Under the pieces are notes generated by a model. That model made no database searches. It had not been told where the DNA came from and saw nothing but the letters and a program-made list of their open reading frames with translations. A DNA stretch of 64,000 bases from Mesorhizobium sp. M2A.F.Ca.ET.046.03.2.1. Lineage in GTDB: Bacteria > Pseudomonadota > Alphaproteobacteria > Rhizobiales > Rhizobiaceae. Below are positions 37,251 to 54,814 of this stretch, piece by piece (position 1 is the stretch's first letter; every line of letters starts with the position of its first letter). The stretch covers positions 6,870,001 to 6,934,000 of the forward strand of contig NZ_CP034449.1 of assembly GCF_003952425.1 (NCBI RefSeq), in the 5' to 3' direction. The translations under genes and the position numbers were made by a program.

Positions 37251-37495
37251 CGCGGCGCCTCCTCGCCGCTGCCGGTCCCGGCTTGGGAGGATGCGGGACC
37301 GGCAAGGATATCGGGACCGAACAGGTCGGGCCGCTGTGCATGGCGCGAGATGCCGGTGGCGCGCTCGATGTCGAGCACGCGTTCGGCCGGCACCCGCTTC
37401 CACGAGTAGAAGGCCTGGTGGCGGATACCCAGATGCGAGGCGAGCGCGCCCAATCCGCCAACCTTGGCGGCTGCGATTCTGACGATTTCGATCAT
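37247..37495 (-). CDS. Cro-like / YdaS-type regulator
   Basis: An 82-aa protein: MIEIVRIAAAKVGGLGALASHLGIRHQAFYSW (in pieces) is the YdaS/Cro helix-turn-helix, with a Pro/Gly-rich tail. It is transcribed divergently from the CI-like repressor. The predicted -10 box ends only 6 bases before ATG 37495, so its mRNA would be leaderless. It probably represses cI and starts the lytic programme. Confidence 0.75.
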   Translation of the reverse strand: MIEIVRIAAAKVGGLGALASHLGIRHQAFYSWKRVPAERVLDIERATGISRHAQRPDLFGPDILAGPASSQAGTGSGEEAPR

Positions 37496-37501
37496 GGCAT
37501 C

Positions 37502-37531
37502 ATGGTAGGTATTACCTACCTACTATGTCAA
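37502..37531 (-). promoter_or_regulatory. Early rightward promoter with operator (PR/OR equivalent)
   Basis: Minus strand: TTGACA (37531-37526), an 18-base spacer and TACCAT (37507-37502). The spacer and -10 overlap a perfect dyad GGTAGGT-AAT-ACCTACC, with another GTAGG half-unit in front. The same arrangement occurs at 53040-53069. Confidence 0.8.
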
Positions 37532-37542
37532 CAGGCATTCGC

Positions 37543-37570
37543 TTGCAAAAAAGTAAGCAATAATTACTAT
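37543..37570 (+). promoter_or_regulatory. Repressor promoter (PRM equivalent)
   Basis: TTGCAA (37543-37548), a 16-base spacer and TACTAT (37565-37570). ATG 37579 lies 9 bases after the -10 box, so the repressor mRNA would be leaderless or nearly so, like lambda cI from PRM. Confidence 0.55.
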
Positions 37571-37578
37571 GCTGCGGC

Positions 37579-38283
37579 ATGATCGCGACGACACGCACCG
37601 ACTCGACGTCCCTCGGCCAGCGCCTGCGCCAGGCGCGGGAGGCTGCCGGCCTGACGCAGAACGACATCGCCGGTCACTTTGGCATCAAGCGTGTCTCGGT
37701 CACGCAATGGGAGGCGGACACCACCCGCCCCGATATGGAGCGCCTGCCCGAGCTTGCCGGGCTGCTCAAGACCGATGTCGCCTGGCTTCTCGACGCCTCG
37801 GGCGCGGCACCCGTGCCGATCGTTCGCGAGCCGAAGCCAAGAGCCTCGCGCACGCCGATCATCCCCGGCGACGAGCTGGTCGGCGGCCGCGACCTGCCGA
37901 TCTACGCTGCCGCGATGGGCGGCGAAGGCCATATGATCGTCACCTTCGAGGCGATCGACTGGGTGAAGCGCCCGGCGGTGCTGCAGAATGTTCGCGGCGG
38001 CTACGGCATCCTGGTGCGCGGCGAATCCATGATCCCTGCCTATTGGCCCGGCGACACCGCGCTGGTGAACCCGCATCTGCAGCCTGCGCGGGATTCCGAC
38101 GCCGTGTTTTTCCACACCCCGCCGAAGGAGCGAGGGGACGAGGAAGCGATCATCAAGCGCCTGGTCGGCATGAACGACCGCGAATGGACGCTGGAGCAAT
38201 ATCGGCCGGCGAAGACGTTTACGGAGAGCCGGGTTGATTGGCCGATTTGCCACCGGGTGGTGGGGAAGTATAACGCGCGATAG
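37579..38283 (+). CDS. CI/LexA-like phage repressor (XRE + S24 peptidase)
   Basis: A 234-aa protein. The XRE domain is at about 12-65 (LRQAREAAGLTQNDIAGHFG; RVSVTQWEAD). The S24 self-cleavage domain is at about 105-225, with nucleophile Ser150 in VRGESMIP and Lys193 in AIIKRLVG. The likely cleavage region is near AAAMGGEG (110-117). It should hold the prophage silent by binding GGTAGGT-N3-ACCTACC at PR and at the 53-kb promoter, and respond to DNA damage through RecA. It is convergent with the downstream TrlF-type gene. Confidence 0.85.
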   Translation: MIATTRTDSTSLGQRLRQAREAAGLTQNDIAGHFGIKRVSVTQWEADTTRPDMERLPELAGLLKTDVAWLLDASGAAPVPIVREPKPRASRTPIIPGDELVGGRDLPIYAAAMGGEGHMIVTFEAIDWVKRPAVLQNVRGGYGILVRGESMIPAYWPGDTALVNPHLQPARDSDAVFFHTPPKERGDEEAIIKRLVGMNDREWTLEQYRPAKTFTESRVDWPICHRVVGKYNAR

Positions 38284-38383
38284 CGGCGGATCAGGCCGCC
38301 TGAGCATCCAAACTGAGCTCCTAATCCGGCCGAGGATCAAGTCCGTGGGCTGCTCCGTCGCTGTTGACTTGGATCCTCCTCGG

Positions 38384-41329
38384 CTAACGAGCTAATGTAA
38401 TTCGAAGGCGTTTCGCTCGATCTCTAAAGGCTCGCTCCCCTCCTTCGAGGACGTCAGTGACAAAGCGGCGAGCCTCTTCTTGGTCGAGGCTTCCAGAACG
38501 ATAGGTAATAGGGGGAAGACCTCGTCCATTTGATGTCCCAACCTCTGCCAGAATGACTTGATCTGCATCGGTGTTCACAACGAGGTTGGCGTTGTGCGTC
38601 ACCATAATCACTTGCCTCCTAAGCTTGGCTTTTTGAAATAAAGGTACCAACTCCTGGTAAACCGATTGGGGGTCTAGATTCTCCTCGGGCTGATCGATTA
38701 TCAGCGGGCGAGAGTCCCCGTCGTCGAGGGCGAGATACAGCAGCACCAGAACGATACCTCGGGTGCCCGGCGATAGCTTTTGAATGTCGATGCCATCGTA
38801 CCGAATGGCGTACTCAATTCCTATGTGCTGCGTGCTGTAAAGCCATTGTGCGAAGCGGCGGGACCATGGGCGATAGGCGGCCGGATCCGCACGCGACGGC
38901 CCCCGGTCCAGCAACTCCGTTTCGAATTGCGCTCGGAACTTCGCCATGGCCTGGGCTATGTCTTTTGCGTCGCCAGTCTCCCAGACGGGCTTGAGCTGCC
39001 TGGTGGCTTCCTGCTCAAGAGTGCCGCGACCTCTAAATGGCCCCCCTCGAACGTCAAAGAGGTCCTTCTCACCCTTCGCTGCCCAGCCCGCGGCGTCCGC
39101 CTTGCGCTCGACCACAAACGTTATTTTGCCAAGGCTGCCGCCTTCGCTCTGAAGACGTTTGGTAATCGGAGCATACAAGTCCCGCAGCACTTTCTCCTCG
39201 TTGAGAATTGCTTTGAACACCTGCTCGTAGCCGCCCTCGCGATCCTTGACGAGCTTAGCCGCACGGCCACCAGCTTCCCTGCAGTCAGCAAGTCGTTCCT
39301 TTGACTGAGCCAAGGTGGTTTTCTCTTCGCCGATGCGCTTGTTCAGGGCCTGTAGGCGTTTGGCTACTGCCTCATCCTGCAGGAGAATACCTCCCAGACG
39401 CTCAATTTCAGCTTCCAGCACTGCCAACGGCAACTTTTCTAACTTTGCGTCGGCGCCGATGAAACTCCCGTCGTGTACCGGACTCTGCGGCTTCTTGCCC
39501 TTCCATGCCGCGAGGTTCGTCTCGGCCGTTGCAGTTTGGTCGCGGATTGACTTGTCAACGTCGCCCGAGAAGGTAAGCAGAAAAAGCTGCCATTCGTCCT
39601 CCTTGAATCCTGCCGGGCGGTTCCGCTCCTTTAAGTCACGTAGCCCGTCGGGCGCCTGGTTCTTGCGAATGTCCGCAACCTCCACACCAAGTGCGGCAAT
39701 GGCCGCTAGGCGACTAGAGAAGTGTCTGATGTAGCCGCGCACCGTCTCGGCGGCAGCTGTGAGTTCGTGTAAACGTTCGCCGGTCTTGCTAGCCACCTTT
39801 GGGATTAGCGCATCGCGGTCCCTGACCAATCCGGCGATCAGCTTTTCCTTGCCTGAGATTTGTTCATCCAGCCCCGCTACCTGCCGGGATTTCTCTAGCT
39901 CAATCCCAATTTGATCCGACACGCTGGCCAAGTTTATTTCTTCTTGTCGCCGCGCTTGCCGATACACGCCGGCGCGGAGATCAAGCAGCTCCCGAAAGTC
40001 CGCAGCGCCATCGCGATCGATCGCCGGATGTGCCTCAAAGATCACTCGTTCGATCTCCGAAATTAGGCGCGGCATCCCGCGAATTGAGCATAGATCTTCA
40101 ACGAACTGCTGCGAGAGGTATCTTGCCCGTTCATAGGAATCAGCATCGCGCTTGAACGGGTCAGCAAGGTCCCGCGTCGTGGTCTCGTGTGCATCCTGCC
40201 ATGCGACCGTCACTTTGGCGCCGGAAAGGAGTTCCTGTGCCCGACCTAAGAAGGAGTTATCATCGTAGGCGGTGTAGCAGTCGCAGCCGGTTGCTATCAC
40301 ATCTGCAAGAGCAGTTTTCCCGGAGCCTCTGGCTCCAATGATCGCTACCAGCCCCGGATTCAACCTGACGACGGAAGTCTGAGCCCAGGGAGCGTTGCTG
40401 ATCGTCACGGTATCTATGACCATCGATGGGCTAGCTCCGGACGGCGGCACTTGCCCCACGTATGCCCGCTCAGGATCGATCAGAGCCTGGTGCAGAGTGT
40501 CGAATGATGGCTTGCCCTTGAGCCAGCAAAGGCGGTTGAGGTCAGGCTTCCCCACTCGAGCAATTTCGTGTGCATCGCATCCCCACAGGCATGGCTTCAG
40601 CGCCCCGTAAAATTCGATTATACTTTCCGATGATTCCTTTCCGCGGCCCAGCCAGAATTCTCGGTCGATCGGGTTGGCGGAAAAAATAACATGGGCCGCG
40701 CGCTGAATACCCTCTCGAACGGTCGCGTCGGCCGCTTCTCTTATGCCGGATGAGCCATCGGCTCCCCCAGCCACTGCGACGATCACATTTCGCTGGACCC
40801 AGTCCATGTCGCGGTAGACGTCCATTAGTTGATTGAGGTTCGCCTTGAACTGACCAATTCCGTGCGAGAGCGCGATGCTGTCGTCTTTAATGTTTTGGTC
40901 AACGGCCCGGCCGAGGCGAATGAGATCTTCCGGTGTGCAAGCGTAGGTGTCTTTGCCGGCCCGCCGAAATTCAATGCGTTGCAAAAAGCGATTTAGCTCG
41001 CCGATGTGATTGGGGTCCTCTGGACTGACGAGCAGGTGTAGATTTACGAAGTTACCTCTGACCGTCGCCACGTCCAGCCGCAGTTCGACGTTTGGGAAAA
41101 TCAGGTCCACACCTTTCAAGCGCCCCGCGGCTTTTTCAGCCATTACACGTTGATAGGTAGTTGTTACTCCGTAGTCAGTAATGCCGAGGGCCTGTATCGC
41201 GGGAGTAGCGTTCTCTATCGCCGCAATGTAACCGTCCCAATCGCCCCCGTATCGATCCTCTCTCAGAGTGCCAGGGGCGTGGATATGAGGATCCCATCTG
41301 TGCCATTCGGCGCCGCGATCGAAACTCAT
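38384..41329 (-). CDS. TrlF-type PHP-domain / AAA (SMC-like) ATPase
   Basis: A 981-aa protein. The N-terminal PHP domain has WDPHIHAPG (metal HxH at about 15-17), ITDYG, FPNVELRLD and LWGCDAHEI. The ATPase has Walker A IIGARGSGKT (about 325-335), a long coiled coil (about 430-720), ABC signature LSPGTRG (about 850), Walker B LIIDQPEENLDP (about 875-886) and switch VTHNANLV. The plan is typical of the TrlF family. Similar PHP- or nuclease-coupled ABC ATPases occur in defence islands, so a DNA-targeting defence role is likely but not proven. It lies next to the repressor. Start has an AAAGGAG site. Confidence 0.8.
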   Translation of the reverse strand: MSFDRGAEWHRWDPHIHAPGTLREDRYGGDWDGYIAAIENATPAIQALGITDYGVTTTYQRVMAEKAAGRLKGVDLIFPNVELRLDVATVRGNFVNLHLLVSPEDPNHIGELNRFLQRIEFRRAGKDTYACTPEDLIRLGRAVDQNIKDDSIALSHGIGQFKANLNQLMDVYRDMDWVQRNVIVAVAGGADGSSGIREAADATVREGIQRAAHVIFSANPIDREFWLGRGKESSESIIEFYGALKPCLWGCDAHEIARVGKPDLNRLCWLKGKPSFDTLHQALIDPERAYVGQVPPSGASPSMVIDTVTISNAPWAQTSVVRLNPGLVAIIGARGSGKTALADVIATGCDCYTAYDDNSFLGRAQELLSGAKVTVAWQDAHETTTRDLADPFKRDADSYERARYLSQQFVEDLCSIRGMPRLISEIERVIFEAHPAIDRDGAADFRELLDLRAGVYRQARRQEEINLASVSDQIGIELEKSRQVAGLDEQISGKEKLIAGLVRDRDALIPKVASKTGERLHELTAAAETVRGYIRHFSSRLAAIAALGVEVADIRKNQAPDGLRDLKERNRPAGFKEDEWQLFLLTFSGDVDKSIRDQTATAETNLAAWKGKKPQSPVHDGSFIGADAKLEKLPLAVLEAEIERLGGILLQDEAVAKRLQALNKRIGEEKTTLAQSKERLADCREAGGRAAKLVKDREGGYEQVFKAILNEEKVLRDLYAPITKRLQSEGGSLGKITFVVERKADAAGWAAKGEKDLFDVRGGPFRGRGTLEQEATRQLKPVWETGDAKDIAQAMAKFRAQFETELLDRGPSRADPAAYRPWSRRFAQWLYSTQHIGIEYAIRYDGIDIQKLSPGTRGIVLVLLYLALDDGDSRPLIIDQPEENLDPQSVYQELVPLFQKAKLRRQVIMVTHNANLVVNTDADQVILAEVGTSNGRGLPPITYRSGSLDQEEARRFVTDVLEGGERAFRDRAKRLRITLAR

Positions 41330-41364
41330 ACATTCTCCTTTGTTGAAAATCGAAACGCTGGAAG

Positions 41365-42222
41365 CTAGCGCCTAGAGCGACGCCAACCCGCTGCAACGGC
41401 TTCGGCTTCCGAGCAGAACCATCTTTCGCCCTTGGCCTCGTTGATGATGGTGACGCTGTAATATCTCTGTCCGGAGACGTGGTATATCCGCTCGCCGTCC
41501 GCCGAAATGTTGCCCTTGATGTTGCAGCCGGCATTGCCGCTGCCGAGCGCGAAGGTTGGCGTCGACGGCGCCTGCGCATCATCACTGCGCTGCGCTCGCC
41601 AATCCCAGGGCGCCTGGAAGTTGCCAACCCATAGACCGAGCTTTGCCGCCTGCGCCTTAGCCTGTTGCGCTGCATAAGCGCCGTCGCTGTATTTCGGCCA
41701 GTCCAGCGCCTGCCCCTGCCCGACCATCCAGGCAGCGACGTCGGTTCCGTCGGCGCGTGTGCAGTTGCCGACAAAGCGCCCGTAGCTGTCCCAGGTCACG
41801 AAGGCGCATTGCACCGGCCTGGAGGCGGAGAGGAACTTGCCCAGCGCTTCGGCGGAGCGGCGGCCGCAGGGATATTCGAAGCCCTTTGCGTCGTCGCAAT
41901 ATTGCCGGCTCTCCGGCGCGTCGATGCCGTTGAAGCGCACGCGCTGGCCGTGGATCTCGATCGTGTCGCCGTCGATCACCGAGGCGACGCCGGCGATAGA
42001 TACCGGCCTCGGCTTGATGATGTTCTGCAGGTTGATTTCCGGCAGCGACCCGCTGTTGTGCATGACGAATTGCGTGACCAGGGCCGAGACCGCGGCGACC
42101 GTCACAAGCACAAGACGAAGCGGGACGCTTGCCCATCGCCTGGCGCGTGAACGTCGCGAGCCAGTGCGCCGCCGCCACTGGTCAGAGCGATTGTCGTAAC
42201 GGGACTTGTCGATGCCGATCAC
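41365..42222 (-). CDS. SNase-family thermonuclease, membrane-anchored or secreted
   Basis: About 285 aa from GTG 42222, which overlaps the upstream lipoprotein stop (GTGA). A membrane helix (LRLVLVTVAAVSALVTQFV) comes before the SNase domain: SVIDGDTIEIHGQRVRFNGIDAPE (in pieces), CGRRSAEAL, and DSYGRFVGNC. The C-terminal part (GNISADGERIYHVSGQRYY; GERWFCSEAEAVAAGWR) is found in many rhizobial thermonucleases. It would cut DNA or RNA in the periplasm. It could hinder incoming phage DNA, though it may simply scavenge. Confidence 0.85.
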   Translation of the reverse strand: MIGIDKSRYDNRSDQWRRRTGSRRSRARRWASVPLRLVLVTVAAVSALVTQFVMHNSGSLPEINLQNIIKPRPVSIAGVASVIDGDTIEIHGQRVRFNGIDAPESRQYCDDAKGFEYPCGRRSAEALGKFLSASRPVQCAFVTWDSYGRFVGNCTRADGTDVAAWMVGQGQALDWPKYSDGAYAAQQAKAQAAKLGLWVGNFQAPWDWRAQRSDDAQAPSTPTFALGSGNAGCNIKGNISADGERIYHVSGQRYYSVTIINEAKGERWFCSEAEAVAAGWRRSRR

Positions 42223-42557
42223 GGCGGGCCGCCCGGGCGGCTCTCGGCCGAGCGGCCGCCGCAACGCGATCCGTCCGCCGCCCTGCTTTCATCGGTCGGA
42301 CAGTTGCCGGTGTAGCCGCCCCCGCCCGAAGCGGGCGATCTATAGCGTTGGATCACAGCGACGCTGCGCTGCCCATCCCCTTCAATATGCGTGTTGTTGC
42401 TGTTCGGATTGAACGGATCGACCGTTTGCAGAAGCGCATTGGCATTGTTTGCGTCGCCGGACGCAAGCGTCATCGTATCGTAATTGTTCAAATAGTCGGC
42501 AGCACAGCCCGACAACAGCACCACACTCGCTGCGGCAAAATACGATCCTAAATCCAC
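42219..42557 (-). CDS. Putative lipoprotein, coupled to SNase gene
   Basis: About 112 aa from GTG 42557; a longer reading to ATG 42653 is possible. A signal sequence with lipobox VVLLSGCAAD is followed by DYLNNYDTMTLASGDANNAN and a Gly/Ser-rich end. Its stop overlaps the SNase start, so the two form an operon. This short lipoprotein type is frequent in rhizobia; function is unknown. Confidence 0.6.
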   Translation of the reverse strand: MDLGSYFAAASVVLLSGCAADYLNNYDTMTLASGDANNANALLQTVDPFNPNSNNTHIEGDGQRSVAVIQRYRSPASGGGGYTGNCPTDESRAADGSRCGGRSAESRPGGPP

Positions 42558-42685
42558 AGAGGTAACCCCCGACCCCGGCTGGCATAATGCTTCATTCGAA
42601 TTTTGTTGTCGAATCCGAGTTTGGCCGCTTGCCATCCGTGCGAAGCTAAGCAACGTTGACAGCGGGTTTGGATTTTGGGGGGACT

Positions 42686-42958
42686 ATGAAGCGGTTTGTT
42701 TTAACCGTCGCTGCAATCGTTTGCATTGCAGGCTGCGCAACGCCACCGGACAAAATAGCGGGCGTGCCCAATGCTGGCCCCTGCACCCAGGCCGACAAGG
42801 AGCGCCTGGCGACTCTGACAAACCAGCAGAACAAGGCTGCGAACGGCGACGCGCTTGGCGTCTTCCTCATCGGCGTGCCGGTCGCGTCGATGTCCGGCGG
42901 CGACCACGAGACCGAAATCGCCGTGCTGAAAGGACGCTGCGGCCCGCCGAAGACCTGA
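42686..42958 (+). CDS. Small lipoprotein
   Basis: A 90-aa protein from ATG 42686, four bases after a GGGGGG stretch. It has a signal peptide and lipobox (MKRFVLTVAAIVCIAGCAT), then TQADKERLATLTNQQNKAA and a short hydrophobic VFLIGVPVASM segment, and it ends HETEIAVLKGRCG. This resembles metal- or stress-linked rhizobial lipoproteins; function is unknown. The 42959-43165 gap shows nothing I can name. Confidence 0.7.
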   Translation: MKRFVLTVAAIVCIAGCATPPDKIAGVPNAGPCTQADKERLATLTNQQNKAANGDALGVFLIGVPVASMSGGDHETEIAVLKGRCGPPKT

Positions 42959-43165
42959 TATTGCGGCTCGCATCAGCGCAACAGCCGCACCGATAACGAC
43001 TGACGGTCCTAACTAGCGTCACGGCCCCAAGTCCCTATTGCGAAACTGCGCAAGGCGCATATTGTTTGGTTGATCGGGGTCTGCGGTCCAAGGGCCTGAA
43101 CCCTGGACGCTGTTATTTGGTCGAGGATGGCCGAACTTCAATAGAGCCGTCCGTGGGACAGAGCC

Positions 43166-44683
43166 ATGCAGCACGGGGCCGTGAGTAATGCGGGCATGGG
43201 GCGAGGCCAGCGTGGGCCGGCCGACGGCGATATTGTCCGGGAGCAAGCCGTCCTCTTTCGTCTCACCGACCGACTTTACCGGGCCAACGGCCTTGGCGAG
43301 ATCTACGATGCAGCGCTGGACGCTATATGCGACGCCCTCGGTTCGTCGCGCGCCTCGATCCTGAGATTTGACAGCCACGGCGTCATGAGCTTCGTCGCCT
43401 GGCGCTCTCTCTCCGAAGACTATCGCAGGGCTGTCAACGGCCACACACCGTGGACCTGCAATCAGCACGACGCCGAGCCAATCTTTGTCGAGGATATTCG
43501 TCTCAGCGGTGAATCCCGGCGGCTCATCGACACCGTCCTTGGCGAGGGTATCCAAGCGCTGGCCTTCATCCCGCTTGCCAGCTCCCGCGAGCTCATCGGC
43601 AAGTTCATGGTCTACTATCCAGCACCCCACCGCTTCGGCGATCGTGAACGCGAACTTGCATTGACCATTGCCCGTCAGCTCGGGTTTGCGATCGAACGGG
43701 AGCGGGCGGAAACGACAGCAGCGCGACTGAGTGCACTGGTCGAATCCTCGGATGATGCCATCATCGCGACGGATATGGACGGCATCGTCACGGACTGGAA
43801 TAGCGGCGCCGAGCGCCTCTACGGCTACGGCCGCGAGGAAATGGTCGGACGTCCGCTCATGTTGCTGATACCGCCCGATCGCCAGAACGAGGAGCGGGAG
43901 ATTCTGGCCCGCATTGGCCATGGAGAGCATGTCGAGCATTTCGAGACCGTTCGCCTGCGCAAGGATGGCAGCAGCATTCCGATCTCCTTGACCGCTTCGC
44001 CGATCGCGGACGCGTCCGGCGCAATTGTCGGTGTTTCCAAGATCGGCCGTGACATCTCCGAGCGCCTGCGCGCGCAGGAGCAGCGGGAGCTGCTGCTTCG
44101 CGAGATGGACCACCGCGTGAAGAACCTTTTTGCGATCGCAAGGACCATCGTCAATTTGAGCGCGCCAGCCGCAGAAACGCCGGCCGCGCTCGCCTCCACC
44201 GTGTCCGACCGCCTCGGCGCCCTCGCCCGGGCGCATGCGCTGACGATGCTCCCCTCGACTGGCCCGTCTGTTCAGGCCGCGACGAGCCTACATGCATTGG
44301 TCGCGGCAATCCTCGAGCCATACCGCCATGGAACCGACGAGCATCCCCGCTTCGCGATCAGTGGCATCGATATGCCGGTGCCTTCAGCGATGATCACGCC
44401 GCTTTCTCTCCTGCTACACGAATTCGCCACCAACGCTGCCAAACATGGCAGCCTCTCGGCAGCCGCCGGCTCGATAGAGATCGCCTGCTCGAACACTGAC
44501 GGCAAGGTGACTGTCCAATGGCGAGAGGTCGGAGGACCACCTCCGATCGCAACCGAAGACGAAGGATTCGGCAGCCGCTTGATCCGCGCCGCGGCGAGGG
44601 AGCTTGGCGGAGTCGTGCGAGATTGGGACGCCGCCGGAATTGTGCTCGAGATCACGATCGATAGTGAAAGATTCTCGGCCTGA
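43166..44683 (+). CDS. HWE/HisKA_2-type sensor histidine kinase (GAF-PAS)
   Basis: A 505-aa cytoplasmic kinase with no membrane segment. A GAF domain spans about 25-180, a PAS domain about 190-310 (SSDDAIIATDMDGIVTDWNSGAERLYGY), then the HWE/HisKA_2 phosphoacceptor LLREMDHRVKNLFA (His about 317). The ATPase part includes LLLHEFATNAAKHGSL (N box) and DEGFGSRLI (G box). Such kinases signal general stress or light/redox in rhizobia. No response regulator gene is adjacent. Confidence 0.85.
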   Translation: MQHGAVSNAGMGRGQRGPADGDIVREQAVLFRLTDRLYRANGLGEIYDAALDAICDALGSSRASILRFDSHGVMSFVAWRSLSEDYRRAVNGHTPWTCNQHDAEPIFVEDIRLSGESRRLIDTVLGEGIQALAFIPLASSRELIGKFMVYYPAPHRFGDRERELALTIARQLGFAIERERAETTAARLSALVESSDDAIIATDMDGIVTDWNSGAERLYGYGREEMVGRPLMLLIPPDRQNEEREILARIGHGEHVEHFETVRLRKDGSSIPISLTASPIADASGAIVGVSKIGRDISERLRAQEQRELLLREMDHRVKNLFAIARTIVNLSAPAAETPAALASTVSDRLGALARAHALTMLPSTGPSVQAATSLHALVAAILEPYRHGTDEHPRFAISGIDMPVPSAMITPLSLLLHEFATNAAKHGSLSAAAGSIEIACSNTDGKVTVQWREVGGPPPIATEDEGFGSRLIRAAARELGGVVRDWDAAGIVLEITIDSERFSA

Positions 44684-44818
44684 TGTCCTAGCCGCTTGTC
44701 GGGGCAGCAGCTCCAGCGGGCGCTCAGCGAAATCGAGTTGGCGTTGGAACAAACGCGACAGCCTCTGTTTGCCCTCAGGCACAATTCAGTGCGTTGGAGG
44801 ACATGGGCCGGCATTGCC

Positions 44819-47167
44819 TTAGCGTATTTGCAGCAGCCACTGGAATTGCGCAAACTGTATCGGGAAGTCGCGGGCAAGATACCGAACCACCTTCGGATTT
44901 TCCAGGATCCGGCCCAGATAACCGTGAGCCGCGACGAGGCCGAGAGCCCGAACACCATGGGTGGCTACGGCGTTTAGAAACTCATGGCTCACTTCACCAA
45001 ATTCAGCCTCCATCGATGTGACTTGAGCAGCCTTGATGCCGTGGAACCGCTTCCGCCGCGATGAGGGATCGGCAAGCTGTGATCGCGGCGTTAGTGCGAC
45101 AAGGGTCTTGGCAAAGTCGGCCCTCACACTACCCAAGGCGAGCATGATCTTTGCCATCTCAACCTGCCTTTCGAAGCTAACCTCGCGCAGGTAAGAAAAG
45201 ATGATCGAAGGAACAGGGCAGTTTTCGAGCAAGCCGAGAGCGTCGGCGCAAATTCCTTCAATTTGGCATGCTGCAAGCGGGCGCTCCGCCCTTATCAGCG
45301 CGAGGTGGGACGGTGGGATCGTTTCCATCAGCATGCTCGGCATTGTCTCGATCCCCTCGCTCTTCAGCAACTCTCGAAATGCTTTAACGGTCATCAATTG
45401 GCGCATAGCCTGGGCTGTTCTGTCCCAGTGCTTTCGCAGTTCGTTCGTCGTCGTCACGAAGTGACGCATTCGCATGCGTTCATGGATAAAGTTTCTCAGC
45501 AAAACGTACCCGCGCAGAGGGTTCGACGGCTCAGGTGCATGCTTGAGACCGGCGAAATGGCGACCAGTGCCGGCGATACCGCGATGGAGCTGACGCATCG
45601 TTGGGGGGAGGATTTGATCAGGCGCACGTCTGGCCATGGCCACCAGGATATCCAGTGTCGCAAACACGAAGGAATCTATCGGGCAGCCATTTTCTGCCTT
45701 GAGGACGTGGAAGACATGGTTCGCCTCATGCCCCGGCAAAACGAGGAAGTCGCGTATCGCAGCATCGCCAGGCTGCATCCTGATCAATACCGACAAGTCA
45801 GCACCCGCGAATCTCCTTCTTCTGAACGCCCAGCGCGGGTATCCATGCCGTGAGAGGCGACAGCGCGCGATCCAGATCGCAACCGTGAATTCGCCGTTTA
45901 CTGTGACCAGCTTGCTGTCCGGGTCATATCGAGCCGAACCGCCCGCGTCCTCTATAGCTGCTACTAGCTCTTCGACGACTTCGTGCCTGCGGTCACGAAG
46001 ATCAACATTTACGCTTATATATTCGTAGTTGCGCGGAGGCTTATATCCGATCCGGCGATATACCTCGGCGAGTGTCCGGAAGCGCCGTTTCAATCGGGAG
46101 CTCGAGGGACAACCGCGGGCGGCGTTGATTATCCTCTCCGACAGCGCTCCTTTCCTTTTGAGAAGTTTGGCCAAGGGAACCAGCATCTGATTGTCGGTCA
46201 TACGGAACAGACGCGCCTTTGCCTCAACCTGGGCACGATCGAACAGCTCGGAGCTGACAATTGGCGCGGATGCATTCTCGACGCGGATCCAGGCGCTGGC
46301 GGGATTGCGGATCCGCTGACTTGTCAGCCTGCTGCTAGAGCGGTTCCAGATGACGTTGCCGATGTATTTCTCATGCGTCAGTACCGTCTTCACCGAACGG
46401 ATCGACCAGGGCCGGCCGTGATCCGTCACCATCCCGCGGGCGTTGAGCGCGTTGGCGATCTCCCTCTTCGTCTTTCCCTCGTTTACAAATTGGTCGAATA
46501 TCCATCGGACCGTCTCAAGCTCCTCGGGTGGACCGAGCACTCTGACCACTCGGTCCGAGACAAGGCTTTTCCACTCTTTTCGCTTCAGGATGCCTTTGGG
46601 TTCACCTGACTGGTCCACCAACAGACGCCGGAAACCATAGCCCGGCGGCCCGCCTACGCGGAATCCCATTTGAACGATCCGGCTCTGGCCGATGAAGCAC
46701 CTCTGCGAAAGCATGCGACTGTACTCGGCCGCCATCGTCCTCTTGATAGCTTTGAGCACGTCAGAGCCCATGGTTCCGTCATTTGCGAACTGCTCGGCGC
46801 AAAATTCGATCCGCACTCCGGCCGACTGGCATCTATATTCGTAGGATGCGCTTTCATCGACGTTTTGAAATCGACCCCAGCGACTGACGTCATAGACCAC
46901 TACCGTCTCAAAATCTGCGAACCCGTTTTCCACGTCGAACAGCAGCTTCTGTAAGCCCGGGCGCCCTTGAAGACTGAGCCCGCTGCGGCCCGGATCCTCA
47001 TATGTCGCAACAATGTCGTACCCCATGATGCCCGCGTAACTGCGGATCGCATCCTTTTGGTTCTCAAGTGAGTAGATTTGCTGATCGGTGGACATGCGAA
47101 GATATTGAGCCGCACGGCCTCGTCGCCTCGCTGTTGGAGGATCGTGGGCCGCTGCAGACTTGTCCAT
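44819..47167 (-). CDS. Serine recombinase with RepB-like C-terminal domain
   Basis: A 782-aa protein. The resolvase domain (about 18-160) has the catalytic Ser26 in YLRMSTDQQ, and VVVYDVSRWGRF. The recombinase domain (about 170-320) follows, with GPPGYGFRR and LTHEKYIGNVIWNR. The rhizobial extension (about 360-520) includes RIGYKPPRNYEYI. The last 190 residues (about 590-782) resemble the C-terminal domain of plasmid partition protein RepB: LREVSFERQVEMAKIMLALGSV, FAKTLVALTPRSQL, and the end GYLGRILENPKVVRYL. It probably moves or moved part of the cargo region. The fusion is unusual. Confidence 0.85.
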   Translation of the reverse strand: MDKSAAAHDPPTARRRGRAAQYLRMSTDQQIYSLENQKDAIRSYAGIMGYDIVATYEDPGRSGLSLQGRPGLQKLLFDVENGFADFETVVVYDVSRWGRFQNVDESASYEYRCQSAGVRIEFCAEQFANDGTMGSDVLKAIKRTMAAEYSRMLSQRCFIGQSRIVQMGFRVGGPPGYGFRRLLVDQSGEPKGILKRKEWKSLVSDRVVRVLGPPEELETVRWIFDQFVNEGKTKREIANALNARGMVTDHGRPWSIRSVKTVLTHEKYIGNVIWNRSSSRLTSQRIRNPASAWIRVENASAPIVSSELFDRAQVEAKARLFRMTDNQMLVPLAKLLKRKGALSERIINAARGCPSSSRLKRRFRTLAEVYRRIGYKPPRNYEYISVNVDLRDRRHEVVEELVAAIEDAGGSARYDPDSKLVTVNGEFTVAIWIARCRLSRHGYPRWAFRRRRFAGADLSVLIRMQPGDAAIRDFLVLPGHEANHVFHVLKAENGCPIDSFVFATLDILVAMARRAPDQILPPTMRQLHRGIAGTGRHFAGLKHAPEPSNPLRGYVLLRNFIHERMRMRHFVTTTNELRKHWDRTAQAMRQLMTVKAFRELLKSEGIETMPSMLMETIPPSHLALIRAERPLAACQIEGICADALGLLENCPVPSIIFSYLREVSFERQVEMAKIMLALGSVRADFAKTLVALTPRSQLADPSSRRKRFHGIKAAQVTSMEAEFGEVSHEFLNAVATHGVRALGLVAAHGYLGRILENPKVVRYLARDFPIQFAQFQWLLQIR

Positions 47168-47231
47168 CGCCTTGCACCGTCGTGCTGGTGCTTTAAACTA
47201 GCGGTCGATCACCTAGCGGCAAGGGATCAGA

Positions 47232-47492
47232 ATGCGCCAATACATCGGACTGATCCATAAAGAGGAAGCCAGTGACTACGGGGTGTCTTTCCCCGACCTT
47301 CCCGGTGTCGTTACGGCCGGCGCAAGTTTCGACGAGGCGCGCGAGTTAGCCGAACAGGCTCTCGCCTTTCACATTGAAGGCCTGATAGACGATGGCGAGG
47401 CCGTCCCAGAACCTAGCTCTCTTGAGCAGATTATGGAGGGCGTCGACAATCGGGAGCTCACAACCATCTTGGTCCCATTGAGGACCCCCTGA
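47232..47492 (+). CDS. HicB-like antitoxin (solitary)
   Basis: An 86-aa protein. The HicB fold shows in YGVSFPDLPGVVTAGASFDEARELAEQAL (in pieces, about 15-45) and the following acidic helix. No HicA toxin gene is present on either side: the recombinase ends 65 bp upstream and a lipoprotein follows. It may be a remnant of a toxin-antitoxin pair or a free regulator. Confidence 0.8.
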   Translation: MRQYIGLIHKEEASDYGVSFPDLPGVVTAGASFDEARELAEQALAFHIEGLIDDGEAVPEPSSLEQIMEGVDNRELTTILVPLRTP

Positions 47493-47663
47493 AGGGTTAC
47501 GGCGGCAGTGCCGCCCTTTCCCGTTTGGCAACCATTGCCTTCAACCGCCGAGAAACCCTGATTCAGTTCGTGAGCGGGCTCTGCCGCCGTTCCGCCGCAA
47601 TGCGACCGCACTCGGGCTTTGTTCGCCCCAGCAGACACCCGGGGCTTCAGAGGAGTTCGAGTG

Positions 47664-47981
47664 ATGTTTATCAAGAAGGCCATTCTGGCGGTGCTGATGA
47701 CGGTGGCACTTGCCGGCTGCGAGACGCAGACCGAAGGCCAGCAGCGGGCTACCACCGGCGCATTGGTTGGCGGCGCAGGCGGCGCGCTTGTCGGCCAGGC
47801 GATCGGCGGCAACACCAAGTCGACGGTGATTGGCGCCGCGAGCGGCGCGCTGCTTGGCGCCGTTGTCGGCTCAGCCACCACCCCGCAGCGCCGCGGCGAG
47901 CAGCTCTGCCGCTACCAGGACCGCTACGGCCGCATCTACACCGCCCCGTGCGACGACCGGTATTACAACGGCGATTATTGA
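47664..47981 (+). CDS. Glycine-zipper outer membrane lipoprotein
   Basis: A 105-aa protein. ATG 47664 (MFIKKAILAVLMTVALAGC) after GGAGTTCGAG; the lipobox LAGC is followed by a glycine zipper (TTGALVGGAGGALVGQAIGG; AASGALLGAVVG) and an aromatic C-terminus (CRYQDRYGRIYTAPC). This type (glycine zipper 2TM) is common in alphaproteobacterial outer membranes. It is not specific to phage. Confidence 0.75.
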   Translation: MFIKKAILAVLMTVALAGCETQTEGQQRATTGALVGGAGGALVGQAIGGNTKSTVIGAASGALLGAVVGSATTPQRRGEQLCRYQDRYGRIYTAPCDDRYYNGDY

Positions 47982-48175
47982 TCGTGCCGGTTCTTCCTTC
48001 TCCCCGTTAGCGGACCTCGTTACGGGGAGAAGGTGCCCTCTCGTTCCCGCAGGCCAGGGAAGACTGGTGGACACATTCCACTAGCGTGCGCCGCAAAAAG
48101 TTTCTTGTGCGACGCACAATCAATGCGTAGATGAATTGGGCGACGTTGGCGGGTTCGGGATAACCGGAGAGCGGT

Positions 48176-49273
48176 TTGAGACCTGAGACAACCCACTTCG
48201 ACGCCTTGCACGGCTTAAGAGGCATCGCCGCTGTTCTGGTGATGCTTGGTCATTTCCGCGAGCTGACGGCGCAGCATCTTGATCTGGCCCCGTCAGGCTT
48301 TCTCGCCGTCGACCTGTTCTTTCTGCTGAGCGGCTTCGTGATCGCCCACGCCTATGACGACAAGTTCCGGAAAGGCATGTCTTTCCGGGAATTCGCGGAG
48401 GCCCGCATCGTCAGGCTCTACCCGTTATATTTCGCCGGCATCGGCATTGCCATGGCCGGCGTGGGAGCGACCATCGCGATGCACGGGCTAAGCTCGTATT
48501 CGCGGCTGGATTTGCTTGCGAGCCTTGCGTTTTCCCTGCTTTTCCTGCCGACGCCGCCGTCGCTTTCAGTCGGTCCAGATTTGCTTTTTCCGTTGAACGG
48601 TCCGGCTTGGTCGCTTTTCTATGAACTTGTCGCCAACGCGGTTTTCGCCGCGCTGGCCCTGAGGCTCGCTCGCCGCTCGCTGGCCGCTATCTTCAGCCTT
48701 GCTTTCCTGGTGCTGGCGCTAATGGCCTGGCAGGGCTTCAGCCTGGGCGGCGGCGCTCATTGGGACGGCACGATCGCGGCTCCCGCCCGGATCGCCTTTT
48801 CCTTCTTCCTCGGCGTTTATCTGCGGCGATATGCGACCGGGGTCAGCCGGGATGGCAATCTCTACATGCCCATCCTGCTGGCGCTTTGCGCAGGACTGAT
48901 GATCTTCCGGCCCGCCGGAAACGCGCAATTATACGACCTGGCGATGATAGTGCTGGTCTGGCCCTGGCTTGTTCTCATGGCTTCCCGCTTGCGGCTCTCG
49001 GGCTTCTGGCGCGCGATCGCCCTGTTCTCCGGCAACATCTCCTACGCCATCTATGCGCTTCACACGCCGCTGATCAGGATCGTGAACATCCTAGACGAAT
49101 CCGTCACTGGAACCTTGCGGAACCAGCACGGCCTGCCATTCGTCGTGGGAACATCCATTCTCGTCATCGCGGTCGCTGCATTCGCGCACTACGTTTACGA
49201 CAAGAATGCGCGGACGCTGCTGCGGCATCTGCTTTCACTGCGGCGCGCACGCGAGGAAGTGACGCAATTCTAA
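48176..49273 (+). CDS. Acyltransferase family 3 membrane protein
   Basis: A 365-aa protein from TTG 48176. The N-terminus HFDALHGLRGIAAVLVMLGHF is the typical acyltransferase-3 start with catalytic-type His. SGFLAVDLFFLLSGFVIAH follows, then eight or more further membrane segments. These enzymes move acetyl or other acyl groups to surface sugars (O-antigen, exopolysaccharide, Nod-factor-type molecules). A second, unlike copy lies 75 bp downstream on the other strand. Confidence 0.85.
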   Translation: MRPETTHFDALHGLRGIAAVLVMLGHFRELTAQHLDLAPSGFLAVDLFFLLSGFVIAHAYDDKFRKGMSFREFAEARIVRLYPLYFAGIGIAMAGVGATIAMHGLSSYSRLDLLASLAFSLLFLPTPPSLSVGPDLLFPLNGPAWSLFYELVANAVFAALALRLARRSLAAIFSLAFLVLALMAWQGFSLGGGAHWDGTIAAPARIAFSFFLGVYLRRYATGVSRDGNLYMPILLALCAGLMIFRPAGNAQLYDLAMIVLVWPWLVLMASRLRLSGFWRAIALFSGNISYAIYALHTPLIRIVNILDESVTGTLRNQHGLPFVVGTSILVIAVAAFAHYVYDKNARTLLRHLLSLRRAREEVTQF

Positions 49274-49348
49274 ATTAGCCGAGGTCCTGCCGCATCGGCG
49301 GCGATCGGACAACGCGCCAGATCAGCGATGTGCAGCCGTTTGCTGATG

Positions 49349-50521
49349 CTACTCGGCGGGACTTGGCTCAAGCGCTGGCTCCTTACGTGCGAACCGGCGC
49401 AACACCACGCGTCCGAGTTGCTGCCCGGGCATCTCGATGAGCCTGTAGGTCAAGAAGGACAGAAGACAAACTACCGGCAGCACGACCGCCAGCACGATGG
49501 CGAAGCGCAGCGGCGCGCCGAGGCCGTCGCCATAACGGGTAATCACGAAGGCCGCCACGGGCTGCAGAATGAGAAGGTGGATCAGATAGATGCTGTAGGA
49601 CAGTTCGCCGAGCACATGAAAGATGCCTCCGCCCAATGCGACGGCGACTTTTCGCGCCGCGGCGCCCGCCGCGCCGGGCAGCATCCGATAGAGGACGAGG
49701 GCAAAGAACCCAAGCACCAGCGCTTCGCGTATCAGGAACTTCGAAAGGCCGTGGCCGTCGCCGAAGGGGATCGCCGCGAGCGCCATCGCCAGGGCCAGAT
49801 GCAGCAGCGGTCGCGGTTGGCTCTGCCCCAGAACGCCCGCCAGAAGCATGCCGCACAGGAAAACCTGTATCTTCAGCGGCAGGAAGGACGGCATCGGGAA
49901 ATGAACCGACATCAACTTGAGGGCCACCACCGCCAGGGCGCCGAGCGCCGCAACGACTAGCGCGCTCCAGACCCATCCGAAACGCCGCGCCAAAAGCATG
50001 AGCGCCGGGAAGACCGCGTAGAACTGCATTTCCAGCCCGAGGCTCCAGTCGGGCAGCGGCGTCCGGTAGGCGAAGTTCGGGGAAAGGCCGAACAGGAATG
50101 TCAGGTGGGCGAAAATGTTCTTCAGGCTGCTGTCAAGGTAGCGCTCTGGCGCCTGCGGCACACGGCCCACGAATGCGTCGATGACTGTCCGCGACTCATA
50201 AACATACGGGCCGAACGCCAGTGCGAAGAACAGCATGACGTAGAACAGCGGCGCAATGCGGAAATAACGCCGCGTCCAGAATTTCAGCCAGGTTTCAGGC
50301 CTTTGCCAGGGCTCCTTGTCCTGGCGCAACTGATAGTGGAACACCATCAGGAAGCCCGAAAGCATGATGAAGAGATCGACGCCCAGCGCCGGGTCGCCAA
50401 GCACCGGGAGATGCCAGCCCGTCAGCAGCAGGCAGTGGCCGACCAGCACCCACAATGCTGCGGCGGCGCGAAGGCCATCCAGGCATTCGATGCGCGATGA
50501 CTCTGTAGGGCTATTGTTCAT
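49349..50521 (-). CDS. Acyltransferase family 3 membrane protein
   Basis: A 390-aa protein starting MNNSPTESSRIECLDGLRAAAALWVLVGH, with ALGVDLFIMLSGFLMVFHY and RRYFRIAPLFYVMLFFAL. It has about ten membrane segments and ends in a cytoplasmic tail. It is convergent with the upstream acyltransferase gene, and only distantly like it. The likely role is acylation of a surface polysaccharide. Confidence 0.85.
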   Translation of the reverse strand: MNNSPTESSRIECLDGLRAAAALWVLVGHCLLLTGWHLPVLGDPALGVDLFIMLSGFLMVFHYQLRQDKEPWQRPETWLKFWTRRYFRIAPLFYVMLFFALAFGPYVYESRTVIDAFVGRVPQAPERYLDSSLKNIFAHLTFLFGLSPNFAYRTPLPDWSLGLEMQFYAVFPALMLLARRFGWVWSALVVAALGALAVVALKLMSVHFPMPSFLPLKIQVFLCGMLLAGVLGQSQPRPLLHLALAMALAAIPFGDGHGLSKFLIREALVLGFFALVLYRMLPGAAGAAARKVAVALGGGIFHVLGELSYSIYLIHLLILQPVAAFVITRYGDGLGAPLRFAIVLAVVLPVVCLLSFLTYRLIEMPGQQLGRVVLRRFARKEPALEPSPAE

Positions 50522-50740
50522 GCTGCATTGCACCATGGCGAGCGAGCCCCGAATGTCAACCCGCGATAGCCTATCAGCTGTAGTTTGACGCGGTCACTTG
50601 CCAATCGGCCGGTCCGGCTGGCGGGGATCTGAGCATCTAGGAATAGGACCCATTGGGGGGTGTGGGCATTTGCGAGGCGTGAATCGAGAAATCGCCAGTT
50701 TCGAGCCGCCCCGGCGCAATCGACAAGGATCAAGCTTGAA

Positions 50741-52507
50741 CTATTCAAGGCCCGCTCGGCGCAGGCCCTCGATATACCTGGCACGGTCCTCAGCCCGTAT
50801 CAGTGGGTGGTATTTTTCGACCCAGTCGATGCTGAGATTCCGCTGTAGACGTTTGCATTCGACGAGTCCTTGGCGTGCGATTTCCAGATCACCGGCCAGT
50901 CCTGCGGCTGCTGTGAGCGTGCGCCAGGCGGTTCCAAAGTTTGGTCTCATCAGCACGGCCCGACGTTCAGCTCTTACCGCTTCGGCGTGGCGGCCGGCGA
51001 CCAGATGGCAAAGACCTTCGACCGAAAGATTGGCTGCTTGGGTTTGGTCCAGGGGACTCAATCGTCGCGCAATTTCGAGCTGGCGGAGGCCATCTTCAGC
51101 AAGCCCCGCATAGCCGTACGCTGCTCCCGAGATTATGTGGACGAATACAAAGTTGGGGTTGCGTTGCAGTGCCTCGTTCAGTTCCTCCACCGCCGGCCCA
51201 AATCGTCTCGACATCGCGAATACGTAGCCCGCCGCAAAATGGGCCCATGCGTCGTCGGGATCGAGGTCTATCGCACGCTGAGCGAGCGTGAGGGCATGGG
51301 AAATGCCTGGCTCAAATTCCAAATTGCCTGAGACTACACGGGTGGCGAAGGTCCACGCGAGCAGGCTGTGGGCGCGAGCGTAGTGGGGATCAAGCTCAAT
51401 CGCTCGCGTCAGGAGGTTGATGCCAGTGTCCTCATCTTGAATAGCCCATAACCAGATATAAGGCATTGCTCGGACAACGCAGCCCCATGCATCGAGACTC
51501 TCCGGCGTCCTACTTTGAAGGCGAAGACGTTCAGCCGCGTAAATCTGCGGCTCGATCGCCGCGACAACGCTGTGAGTGATCTCGTCCTGCACGGCGAAAA
51601 TATCAGAGGCGGGGCGGTCGTAGCGCTCTGCCCAGATGTGGTTGCCGCTGGCGGCATCGACGAGCTGCCCAGTTACCCGTACCCGCTCGCCAGCCTTGCG
51701 AACGCTGCCTTCCAGTATGTAGCGAACACCAAGCTCTCGCGCGACCTGACGGATATCCGGCGCCTTGCCTTTGTACGCGAAGGTCGAATTGCGAGCGATA
51801 ACGAAGAAGCCCCGCAGCTTGGACAAGGCGGTAATGATGTCCTCAGCGACGCCGTCGCCAAAGTATTCCTGTTCGGGGTCACCGCTCATGTTCTGGAACG
51901 GCAGGACAGCAATCGACGGCTTGTCGGGCAGCGCCAGTTTTCCACCGGAGAGGTCGGGCACTGTCGGCTCTTTTTCGGCGCCACTGTTTAAGGTCACGCG
52001 ATAGGCTCGCACCGGCCGTGCAATGTTTTTGAGTTCCTGGTCGCCGATATCCTCGAAATTAACTTTGAGCTTGTCGCGTACCTGTTCATATGCCGCACCC
52101 GATAGGCAAATACCATTAGGTTGGGCAATACCTTGCAGACGGGCAGCAATGTTGACACCGTCGCCCATCAGGTCGCCGTCGCTCTCCTCGACTACATCGC
52201 CAACATGTATTCCTATGCGAAACGCGATACGTCGATCAGGCGGCACCCCGGCGTTGCGTTCGAGCATGGCGTTCTGCACCTCGATGGCGCATCGGACAGC
52301 ATCGACCACGCTGCGGAACTCGACAAGGGCTCCGTCACCGGTACGTTTCACCACGCGTCCGATGTGTACCGCGATGGTAGGATCAACCAGGTCGCTGCGG
52401 AGTGCCCGGAGGCGCGCGAGAGTCCGATCTTCGTCCAAACCAGCCAGTCGGCTGTATCCGACGACATCGGCGGCCAGGATCGCCGCAAGCTTGCGGGTCT
52501 CGCTCAT
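50741..52507 (-). CDS. Class III adenylate/guanylate cyclase with TolB-like middle and TPR repeats
   Basis: A 588-aa protein from MSETRKLAAILAADVVGYS. The cyclase domain (about 5-180) keeps metal Asp14 and the KRTGDGALVEF region, plus GDGVNIAARLQGIA. The middle (about 200-320) is TolB/FlgO-like: PSIAVLPFQNMSGDPEQEYF and YILEGSVRKAGERVRVTGQL. The end (about 350-588) holds TPR-type repeats (AIELDPHYARAHSLLAW; AIDLDPDDAWAHFAAGYV). Rhizobia have many such cyclases. It converts ATP to cAMP; its link to the prophage is not shown. Confidence 0.85.
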   Translation of the reverse strand: MSETRKLAAILAADVVGYSRLAGLDEDRTLARLRALRSDLVDPTIAVHIGRVVKRTGDGALVEFRSVVDAVRCAIEVQNAMLERNAGVPPDRRIAFRIGIHVGDVVEESDGDLMGDGVNIAARLQGIAQPNGICLSGAAYEQVRDKLKVNFEDIGDQELKNIARPVRAYRVTLNSGAEKEPTVPDLSGGKLALPDKPSIAVLPFQNMSGDPEQEYFGDGVAEDIITALSKLRGFFVIARNSTFAYKGKAPDIRQVARELGVRYILEGSVRKAGERVRVTGQLVDAASGNHIWAERYDRPASDIFAVQDEITHSVVAAIEPQIYAAERLRLQSRTPESLDAWGCVVRAMPYIWLWAIQDEDTGINLLTRAIELDPHYARAHSLLAWTFATRVVSGNLEFEPGISHALTLAQRAIDLDPDDAWAHFAAGYVFAMSRRFGPAVEELNEALQRNPNFVFVHIISGAAYGYAGLAEDGLRQLEIARRLSPLDQTQAANLSVEGLCHLVAGRHAEAVRAERRAVLMRPNFGTAWRTLTAAAGLAGDLEIARQGLVECKRLQRNLSIDWVEKYHPLIRAEDRARYIEGLRRAGLE

Positions 52508-52671
52508 CTGCCCCTCCTTCACTCTCTGACATAGCACGGACTCAGGAGGGCTGCTTCATTTAGATCGGCTCGACCTGCAGCCGCTTCGGGGGACCGCAGT
52601 GCGACATTGCTGGCGATGATGATAGGAGGGCTGGGCGACGACGAGATGGAGGCGCAGTTTGTTTCGAACCC

Positions 52672-52923
52672 TTAGGATGCCATCGACACTTCCGTCTCAA
52701 GCAGCGGAACAATCCCGTTAGCATAAAGAATAACGGCGTCGTCGAACTCCCCACTTGAAGGGTCACCCTTCCGGCTGAACGCCACCACCCCGGCCGAGCA
52801 GCCCGCCAGTTTCTCAGCGAGTCGCAACGCATGCTCGGCATCTTGCACCTCCACCGCCTTTCCGGCGGTGACGGCTCCCCTCGGCGTGAAGTTGAAACTC
52901 TGGACAACAAAATACGTCAGCAA
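52672..52923 (-). CDS. Conserved small hypothetical protein
   Basis: About 83 aa. TTG 52923, or GTG 52926, lies just after an AGGAGG site. The sequence TYFVVQSFNFTPRGAVTAG, then AEHALRLAEKLAGCSAGVVAFSRKGDP, is like small proteins common in rhizobia with no assigned role. Confidence 0.6.
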   Translation of the reverse strand: MLTYFVVQSFNFTPRGAVTAGKAVEVQDAEHALRLAEKLAGCSAGVVAFSRKGDPSSGEFDDAVILYANGIVPLLETEVSMAS

Positions 52924-53039
52924 CACTGCCTCCTTTGCCGCGGCAGTGTGACTCAGGGTTGAGAACAAAACAAGTACAAACCTGCTCTTGGCCGCCCGTC
53001 ATTCCACAGGGGCGTAGCAGCAACGCTAACCTACTCCGC

Positions 53040-53069
53040 TTGACAAAGTAGGTAGGTGTTACCTACCAT
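53040..53069 (+). promoter_or_regulatory. Early leftward-type promoter with operator (PL/OL equivalent)
   Basis: TTGACA (53040-53045), 18 bases, TACCAT (53064-53069). Overlapping is the perfect dyad GGTAGGT-GTT-ACCTACC (53051-53067), with one more AGTAGGT half-unit in front and another (AGTAGGTAG) at 53081-53089. Layout and sequence match the Cro promoter at 37502-37531. It reads towards the integrase operon. Confidence 0.8.
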
Positions 53070-53095
53070 AAGCGCATCGGAGTAGGTAGATGAAA

Positions 53096-53443: not shown

Positions 53444-53596
53444 CTAGTCCCCCTGCCATCTGCCTCGCGTTCGGCAAGCTATCACAGGGCTGGAGCGCTC
53501 GCGAACAGGCTTCCACACGTTGCCTTCTTGGCCGCTCTCCTGTTCTGCGCCGCTGTCACGCTCGGCGCCTTCTAACGCACCCAAGGAGAATCGACA

Positions 53597-54798: not shown

Positions 54799-54814
54799 AC
54801 GGGGACAGCGCGCA

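Follow-up and report, generated by a model that had tools for sequence, protein, structure and literature searches.

Why do two almost identical promoter-operators lie so far apart in a bacterial chromosome, and do they belong to one mobile element or to two? The question is raised by a stretch of 64,000 nt of Mesorhizobium sp. M2A.F.Ca.ET.046.03.2.1 (contig NZ_CP034449.1, positions 6,870,001-6,934,000; hereafter the window), in which a preliminary description had noticed such a pair and assigned it to one lambda-organised prophage with cargo genes between the two sites. We compared the window with its own 7.37 Mb genome (G000), with a genus set of 146 Mesorhizobium genomes and with a wider search set of 150 genomes, the own one included. 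The result is, with high probability, a single prophage with a paired immunity region of the lambda OR/OL type, read by one repressor and holding an exchangeable cargo bay inside it.

Two promoter-operators and the prophage that encloses them

Eight phages were compared: that of the window (G000), G004, G026, G187, G188, G150, G151 and G006. G150 is Mesorhizobium loti CJ3sym, and G168, which occupies the same contig place, is counted with it; G151 is a viral contig. The features that define the region are these, in window coordinates:

37247-37495, minus strand: cro-like gene (match to the YdaS and P22 Cro families), predicted start 7 nt past the -10 box
37502-37531, minus strand: promoter-operator 1 (OR-like, PR-like), ahead of cro, with the dyad GGTAGGTATTACCTACC at 37504-37520; counterpart in 8/8 phages compared
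37579-38283, plus strand: repressor of the CI/LexA type, helix-turn-helix (HTH) plus S24 peptidase (family matches)
38284-52671: 14.4-kb cargo bay, reaching from the repressor stop codon to that of p52.7; missing in G006
52672-52968, minus strand: p52.7, conserved 98-aa gene with no Pfam match, tail to tail with the repressor in G006
53040-53069, plus strand: promoter-operator 2 (OL-like, PL-like), with its dyad at 53051-53067 within a half-site cluster at 53029-53087; counterpart in 8/8 phages compared

The two sites are as alike as had been claimed. Both have the hexamers and spacing TTGACA-N18-TACCAT and a perfect GGTAGGT-N3-ACCTACC dyad, they are identical at 27 of 30 bases (three differences), and the pair is unique in the window and in the genome. 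Exact copies of GGTAGGTNNNACCTACC occur in the window at sites 1 and 2 and nowhere else; with up to three mismatches allowed, three matches are found, compared with 0.62 +/- 0.72 in shuffled sequence, where one of 100 shuffles reached three. The 20-base pattern GTAGGTAGGTNNTACCTACC, searched through the whole 7.37 Mb genome at up to two mismatches, finds sites 1 and 2 only, each with no mismatch (one match for the backwards control), and at one mismatch a pattern of this type is matched in three of the 150 genomes (G000, G004 and G026), twice in each, with no match for the control. Each site is the sole sigma-70-like promoter match in the 1.1 kb scanned around it, agreeing with the consensus at 10 of 12 bases (0.2 and 0.3 matches in shuffles). 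While 24 GTAGGT/ACCTAC half-sites are spread over the window, clusters of at least three per 80 bp are confined to site 1 (three half-sites) and site 2 (five), where a single full dyad was seen on each side.

Both operator sites lie inside a single temperate phage genome of ~61.9 kb integrated in tRNA-Gln(CTG). A full 40-bp attachment (att) repeat has only two copies in 84 kb (window plus flanks), and these bracket both sites; one is the start of the tRNA gene on the right, the other lies outside the window at genome positions 6864287-6864326, equivalent to window -5713 to -5674, and the distance between them gives the length of the element. The att copies of G004 and G026 are 62.9 and 64.3 kb apart and enclose the same phage. 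An empty site is present in all six of the best-matching non-carriers checked by coordinates (G086, G032, G036, G071, G058 and G007), in which the left flank continues directly into an intact tRNA. Among the 150 genomes, the terminase (95% identity) and the integrase (96-97%) were found in the same two relatives, G004 and G026, on one contig in each. The early proposal of one prophage covering both sites is thus borne out by the att repeats and the six empty sites; of its suggested span, ~1.25-56.1 kb, the right end was correct, but the left end lies at window -5713, ~5.7 kb to the left of the window. Three further features of this element are relevant here:

28316-30313, minus strand: terminase large subunit (gpA), late module (family match)
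32893-34680, minus strand: D5-type primase-helicase, early module downstream of promoter 1 (family match)
56154-56193, plus strand: right att core, the 40-bp repeat, being the first 40 nt of tRNA-Gln(CTG) at 56154-56227

The label "lambda-organised" fits the immunity layout but not the virion or the replication genes, which are not lambdoid, with a tail sheath and a D5 primase-helicase present. A Mu-like, transposing phage for the 1-38 kb part was considered and rejected, as the expected places hold the D5 primase-helicase and the gpA terminase. The portal gene (26725-28334) is split over two frames here and unbroken in G004, G026 and G150.

Some observations concern the ends of the element. 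Since the first 40 nt of tRNA-Gln(CTG) come from the phage, integration leaves the intact tRNA behind int with its native upstream region 62 kb away, and the phage or the int operon would therefore have to provide the tRNA promoter. In about 12 Mesorhizobium genomes the contig with the intact tRNA-Gln also has, 1-48 kb away, a further incomplete copy of its 3' part, which suggests that this tRNA is host to other elements that make use of another portion of it. Among the three closest carriers the left prophage end (L073:4637-10000) is patchy too, homology from att running unbroken for ~350 bp against G004 and ~1.5 kb against G026, and it is a possible second cargo site.

The operator pair and its predicted reader in related phages

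The repressor, with carriers defined at E <= 1e-60, is encoded by seven of the 146 genus genomes, and all seven have the operator pair, at spacings of 15.5 kb (G000), 17.7 kb (G004), 19.6 kb (G026), 18.9 kb (G187), 15.1 kb (G188), 9.5 kb (G168/G150) and 1.16 kb (G006). The viral contig G151 has the pair 8.9 kb apart, making eight of eight phages with this repressor. Both hexamers, TTGACA and TACCAT, are kept at site 2 in the window, G004, G026 and G187. The terminase and integrase modules stand together in G004, G026 and G150, as expected if the two belong to one phage; G187 and G188 keep the late module and the left operon, but the 40 kb fetched of each, like the 40 kb of G006, has no match to this integrase. 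G188 has a different integrase-family gene nearby, and G006 a weaker match below the cut-off. The operator pair thus appears to outlast the choice of integrase.

The recognition helix of the repressor, KRVSVTQWE, is identical in seven phages of the GTAGGT type and differs by one letter in G006 (SRVSVTQWE). The cro-like protein is 96-100% identical in G004, G026 and G187 and 71% identical in G150. No cro match was found beside operator 1 in G188 (L212:9050-9280), which keeps the repressor and both dyads, and this points to the repressor as the reader of the pair. The cro position of G188 is occupied by a piece related to the downstream gene p36, as if after a deletion.

Some more distant alphaproteobacterial phages with related integrases also seem to pair operators around their repressors, and there the paired dyads differ along with the recognition helices. 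G093 has ACTGATAAATTGGT and ACTAATAAATTAGT 1.16 kb apart, the motif having been derived from these very sites; G156 has GGTTGTTGGTTGTCAACAACC plus a match at 20 of 21 bases 1.13 kb off; and G154, L143, L090 and G099 have operator pairs 0.8-1.6 kb apart. Phages for these scans were drawn from 46 genome and 38 viral integrase loci, of which six were left out as the same record and the remainder cut to their first 12 kb; a repressor-like open reading frame (ORF) was recognised in a minority of loci. Dropped beforehand were L136, L139 and L147, whose repressor matches duplicate those of G154, G156 and G099, the second hits of L136 and L143, and, as short or weak, the second ORFs of G154, G099, G156/L139 and L128 together with L132, L137 and L108. 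The 15 phages that were scanned are mutually non-independent, five being of the GTAGGT type and two of another single type. A blind dyad scan, which avoids motifs chosen by eye by taking the dyads between cro and the repressor and seeking their best match across everything fetched for each phage, placed the sole best match 3' of the repressor in nine of the 15 (the window, G150, G156, G004, G026, G099, L143, L090 and, weakly, G154). The distant integrase relatives G016, G052 and G133 were fetched and used in none of these scans: G016 resembles the prophage in the integrase only, G052 in the integrase, weakly in D5 and in nothing else, and G133 in the terminase, phosphatase, integrase, p47 and, weakly, SNase.

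Judging from the agreement between operator type and helix, the S24-type repressor most likely recognises one and the same dyad of 17-20 bp at both promoters. Promoter 1 would then be the rightward equivalent, preceding cro together with the replication and late genes, and promoter 2 the leftward equivalent, ahead of a phosphatase-xis-int operon. By analogy with lambda, both promoters would be shut in the lysogen, and cleavage of the repressor would open the two together. The cro-like transcript is possibly leaderless, since its predicted start is just 7 nt beyond the -10 box.

The region behind promoter 2 holds the following genes:

53096-53443, minus strand: p53m, conserved 115-aa gene (codon-position counts), its start resembling a signal peptide by eye; transcripts from promoter 2 would run antisense to it
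53597-54112, plus strand: conserved left-operon gene, no family match
54109-54798, plus strand: phage deoxyribonucleoside 5' monophosphate phosphatase family (phrog_318; no Pfam match), which we take to be of the HD type
54779-55036, plus strand: xis-like small HTH ORF (HTH_17 match well below cut-off)
54900-56108, plus strand: tyrosine integrase (family match, relatives)

Site 2 had been described as the promoter ahead of an xis-int operon. A co-oriented operon is indeed downstream, but not directly: transcription would first cross the minus-strand p53m and then reach 53597-54112 and the phosphatase-family gene. With the integration genes in the co-oriented block 53597-56108 behind promoter 2 and p53m antisense in between, the arrangement is consistent with an operon behind the left promoter, as in lambda. 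The true integrase start may be near 55030, since likeness to distant relatives begins at about residue 45 or later. That p53m is a gene is indicated by codon positions, as 33-35 of 43-47 differences fall in position 3 in three pairwise comparisons. A plus-strand ORF of 161 aa (53090-53575) was considered as the first left-operon gene and rejected where it overlaps p53m, codon-position counts favouring the minus-strand gene; it had a good start and a Shine-Dalgarno-like sequence, and its last 44 codons are ambiguous. As a matter of speculation, induction could silence p53m through antisense reading from promoter 2.

The cargo bay between repressor and p52.7

The insertion point of the cargo is the junction of two convergent genes, the repressor and p52.7. 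A cargo-free relative, which the preliminary description had proposed to look for, was found in G006: with the operators so close together, the repressor and p52.7 stand tail to tail with their stop codons overlapping by 4 nt, and no further gene was found between the operators. In the seven cargo carriers, sequences diverge directly after the repressor stop. Homology between the window and G150 ends at 38283, the last base of the repressor, and resumes at 52735 within p52.7; against G004 and G026 it ends at 38279-38281 and resumes at 52663-52671. With the p52.7 end good to ~3 bases in some phages, the bays measure 14,388 bases in the window, 16,577 in G004, 18,478 in G026, 13,908 in G188, 17,760 in G187, 8,314 in G150 and 7,731 in G151. 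The compact relatives suggest that the cargo-free state preceded the filled one.

The identities first given to the cargo (TrlF, SNase, kinase, recombinase, acyltransferases and cyclase) hold, and the contents of the bay in the window are as follows:

38384-41329, minus strand: TrlF-family AAA-like ATPase, defence-type (NF045780, 642 bits against a cut-off of 350, residues 5-975 of 981); other genes at this place in other bays
41365-42264, minus strand: SNase-domain protein, full-length in 5/8 phages compared
43166-44683, plus strand: GAF-PAS HWE histidine kinase (family match)
44819-47167, minus strand: serine recombinase and RepB-like domain fused in one ORF, as against two ORFs in G004, G026, G187 and G188
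47232-47492, plus strand: HicB-like antitoxin (family match)
48176-49273, plus strand: acyltransferase 3 family (family match)
49349-50536, minus strand: acyltransferase 3 family (family match)
50741-52537, minus strand: adenylate/guanylate cyclase domain plus TPR (family match)

Beside the repressor, DNA and protein comparison (E 1e-3 and 1e-2) found no gene common to any two of the seven cargo carriers. Where the window has TrlF, G004 has a DNA methylase and a protein that resembles part of PD-Lambda-5/PDC-M38, G026 an AAA_16-like protein, G188 a UvrD-like helicase and G187 small proteins, among them one that is TIR-effector-like. In G150 this place is taken by an ATPase-like gene, followed at a distance by genes of the CHAT and LCAT types, and in G151 by two TIR/ThsB-type genes and a caspase-type gene, with a metallophosphatase gene beyond them. 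The SNase, recombinase/RepB and HicB-like genes are common to five bays (window, G004, G026, G187 and G188). On the p52.7 side, where part of the genes were scanned, family matches include cyclases, histidine kinases, a GGDEF protein, acyltransferases, PAP2 and a subtilase. DNA that matches no other bay makes up 41-54% of each of the five SNase-sharing bays, 99% of the bay of G150 and 97% of that of G151.

The position of the bay is consistent with the pattern of a prophage defence hotspot, namely a fixed place with differing genes, several of them of predicted defence type. The TIR, AAA_16, ORC-CDC6-like, PADLOC and HTH_17 matches include several that are partial or under the curated cut-off, and "defence-type" therefore describes predicted families, not function. 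Lying outside both lytic operons, the bay could be carried and expressed in the lysogen without upsetting the switch, and its cargo probably benefits the host through defence and signalling.

How the cargo changes is a further question. The serine recombinase is unsupported as a general agent of exchange, as G150 and G151 are without a match to it. We also offer, as a tentative idea that we judge rather unlikely, that the bay is a dedicated cargo-exchange locus. Cargo would enter and be replaced at the junction of the convergent repressor and p52.7 genes, in five phages perhaps with the aid of the serine recombinase in the bay and its RepB-like partner, and the immunity switch would be left intact on both sides. 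If this were true, phages would change their defence and signalling load while the switch stays intact.

Weighing the reading, and its place among known immunity regions

Several points weigh against one repressor reading a matched pair of operators around such a bay. The link between repressor and operator comes from matching operator type and recognition helix, binding itself being predicted, and either site, or both, could be read mainly by Cro. The dyad at site 2 is better preserved than the promoter around it: TTGACA and TACCAT are 23 rather than 18 bases apart in G188, while G150 and G151 have TTGACG as their -35 and a poor -10. Promoter 2 must moreover read antisense through p53m to reach its operon. 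Among the 15 phages scanned, the blind dyad scan gave no sole first-place second site in six (G151 tied second; L095 and L128 tied, with weak matches; G155 and L133 none; G093 filtered out), and a plain 18-mer scan of 15 phages put the second site first alone in six, in a tie in three, second in one and nowhere in five. Many cargo genes, among them the acyltransferases, kinases, recombinase and SNase, are not known defence genes. Finally, the broken portal frame may reflect a defective prophage copy or else a sequencing error, and particles may not form.

The alternative that survives best, though we consider it improbable, is that the cro-like (YdaS-type) protein mainly reads the paired dyad and the S24 repressor binds elsewhere, in which case the pair would serve to shut off the lytic phase rather than to hold lysogenic repression. 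It draws on the well-conserved cro-like gene adjoining site 1 and on lambda, in which Cro and repressor use common operators; against it, G188 retains the repressor and both dyads where cro has no match, operator type tracks the repressor helix across phages, and a site over the -10 box and spacer would suit a repressor's need.

Far less credible, and already largely refuted, is the idea of two adjoining elements, a prophage from -5.7 to 38 kb and an integrative island from 38 to 56 kb with a borrowed phage operator. The stretch from 38 to 52.7 kb varies, encodes a serine recombinase of its own and has a G+C content of 0.60 compared with 0.64, and G187 and G188 have the repressor and late module without this integrase in the fetched stretch. 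Yet the only two full att copies enclose both parts, the flank of the six non-carriers runs straight into an intact tRNA, and terminase and integrase at >=95% co-occur in two relatives and in none other of the 150 genomes, own one included; G187 and G188 keep p52.7, p53m, the gene at 53.6 kb and the phosphatase gene beside the same repressor, and G006 has the operator pair with no cargo. That the dyad near 53 kb is mainly a terminator of the converging p53m, its likeness to site 1 a by-product, is scarcely tenable, for although a minus-strand hairpin listed as terminator-like follows the p53m stop, its tail is not a T run, TTGACA/TACCAT are kept around the dyad in the window, G004, G026 and G187, and the same dyad precedes cro at site 1.

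A single prophage with a paired immunity region and a bay inside it has precedents in kind. The lambda immunity region consists of OR/PR, cI, rexAB and OL/PL, with rexAB between the operators, and cargo in immunity regions is known from rexAB and from the variable regions of some mycobacteriophages. As in lambda, the same operator stands at two early promoters that flank an S24-type repressor, the interval between the operators also holds genes belonging to neither lytic operon, and the int operon is behind the left promoter. Unlike lambda, which has three separate operators, the prophage shows one full dyad per side, and exchangeable cargo of up to 18.5 kb takes the place of rexAB; an N gene was not identified here, and the tail-sheath and D5-primase modules are further differences.

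Mycobacteriophages of cluster N reportedly have a central variable region near integrase and repressor, expressed in the lysogen and responsible for prophage-mediated defence. The phages described here likewise have variable, defence-rich genes adjoining the immunity genes, for which expression in the lysogen is predicted; they differ in being alphaproteobacterial and in having the bay bracketed by a matched operator pair, between two stop codons. P2/P4-type phages and satellites are said to carry defence hotspots, which share with the bay a fixed position in the phage genome and swapped defence genes, the position here being within an operator-bounded immunity region. Compared with these systems, what seems unusual is the size of the bay, its stop-codon borders, the extent of its turnover and the existence of a cargo-free relative whose operators are of the same kind.

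The region offers a clear example of an OR/OL-type immunity region turned into a cargo bay, with the empty relative for comparison. It also yields a rule for finding unknown defence genes, which is to search from the repressor stop codon to the distal operator, and it shows that a phage can carry exchangeable lysogenic cargo with its lytic operons untouched.

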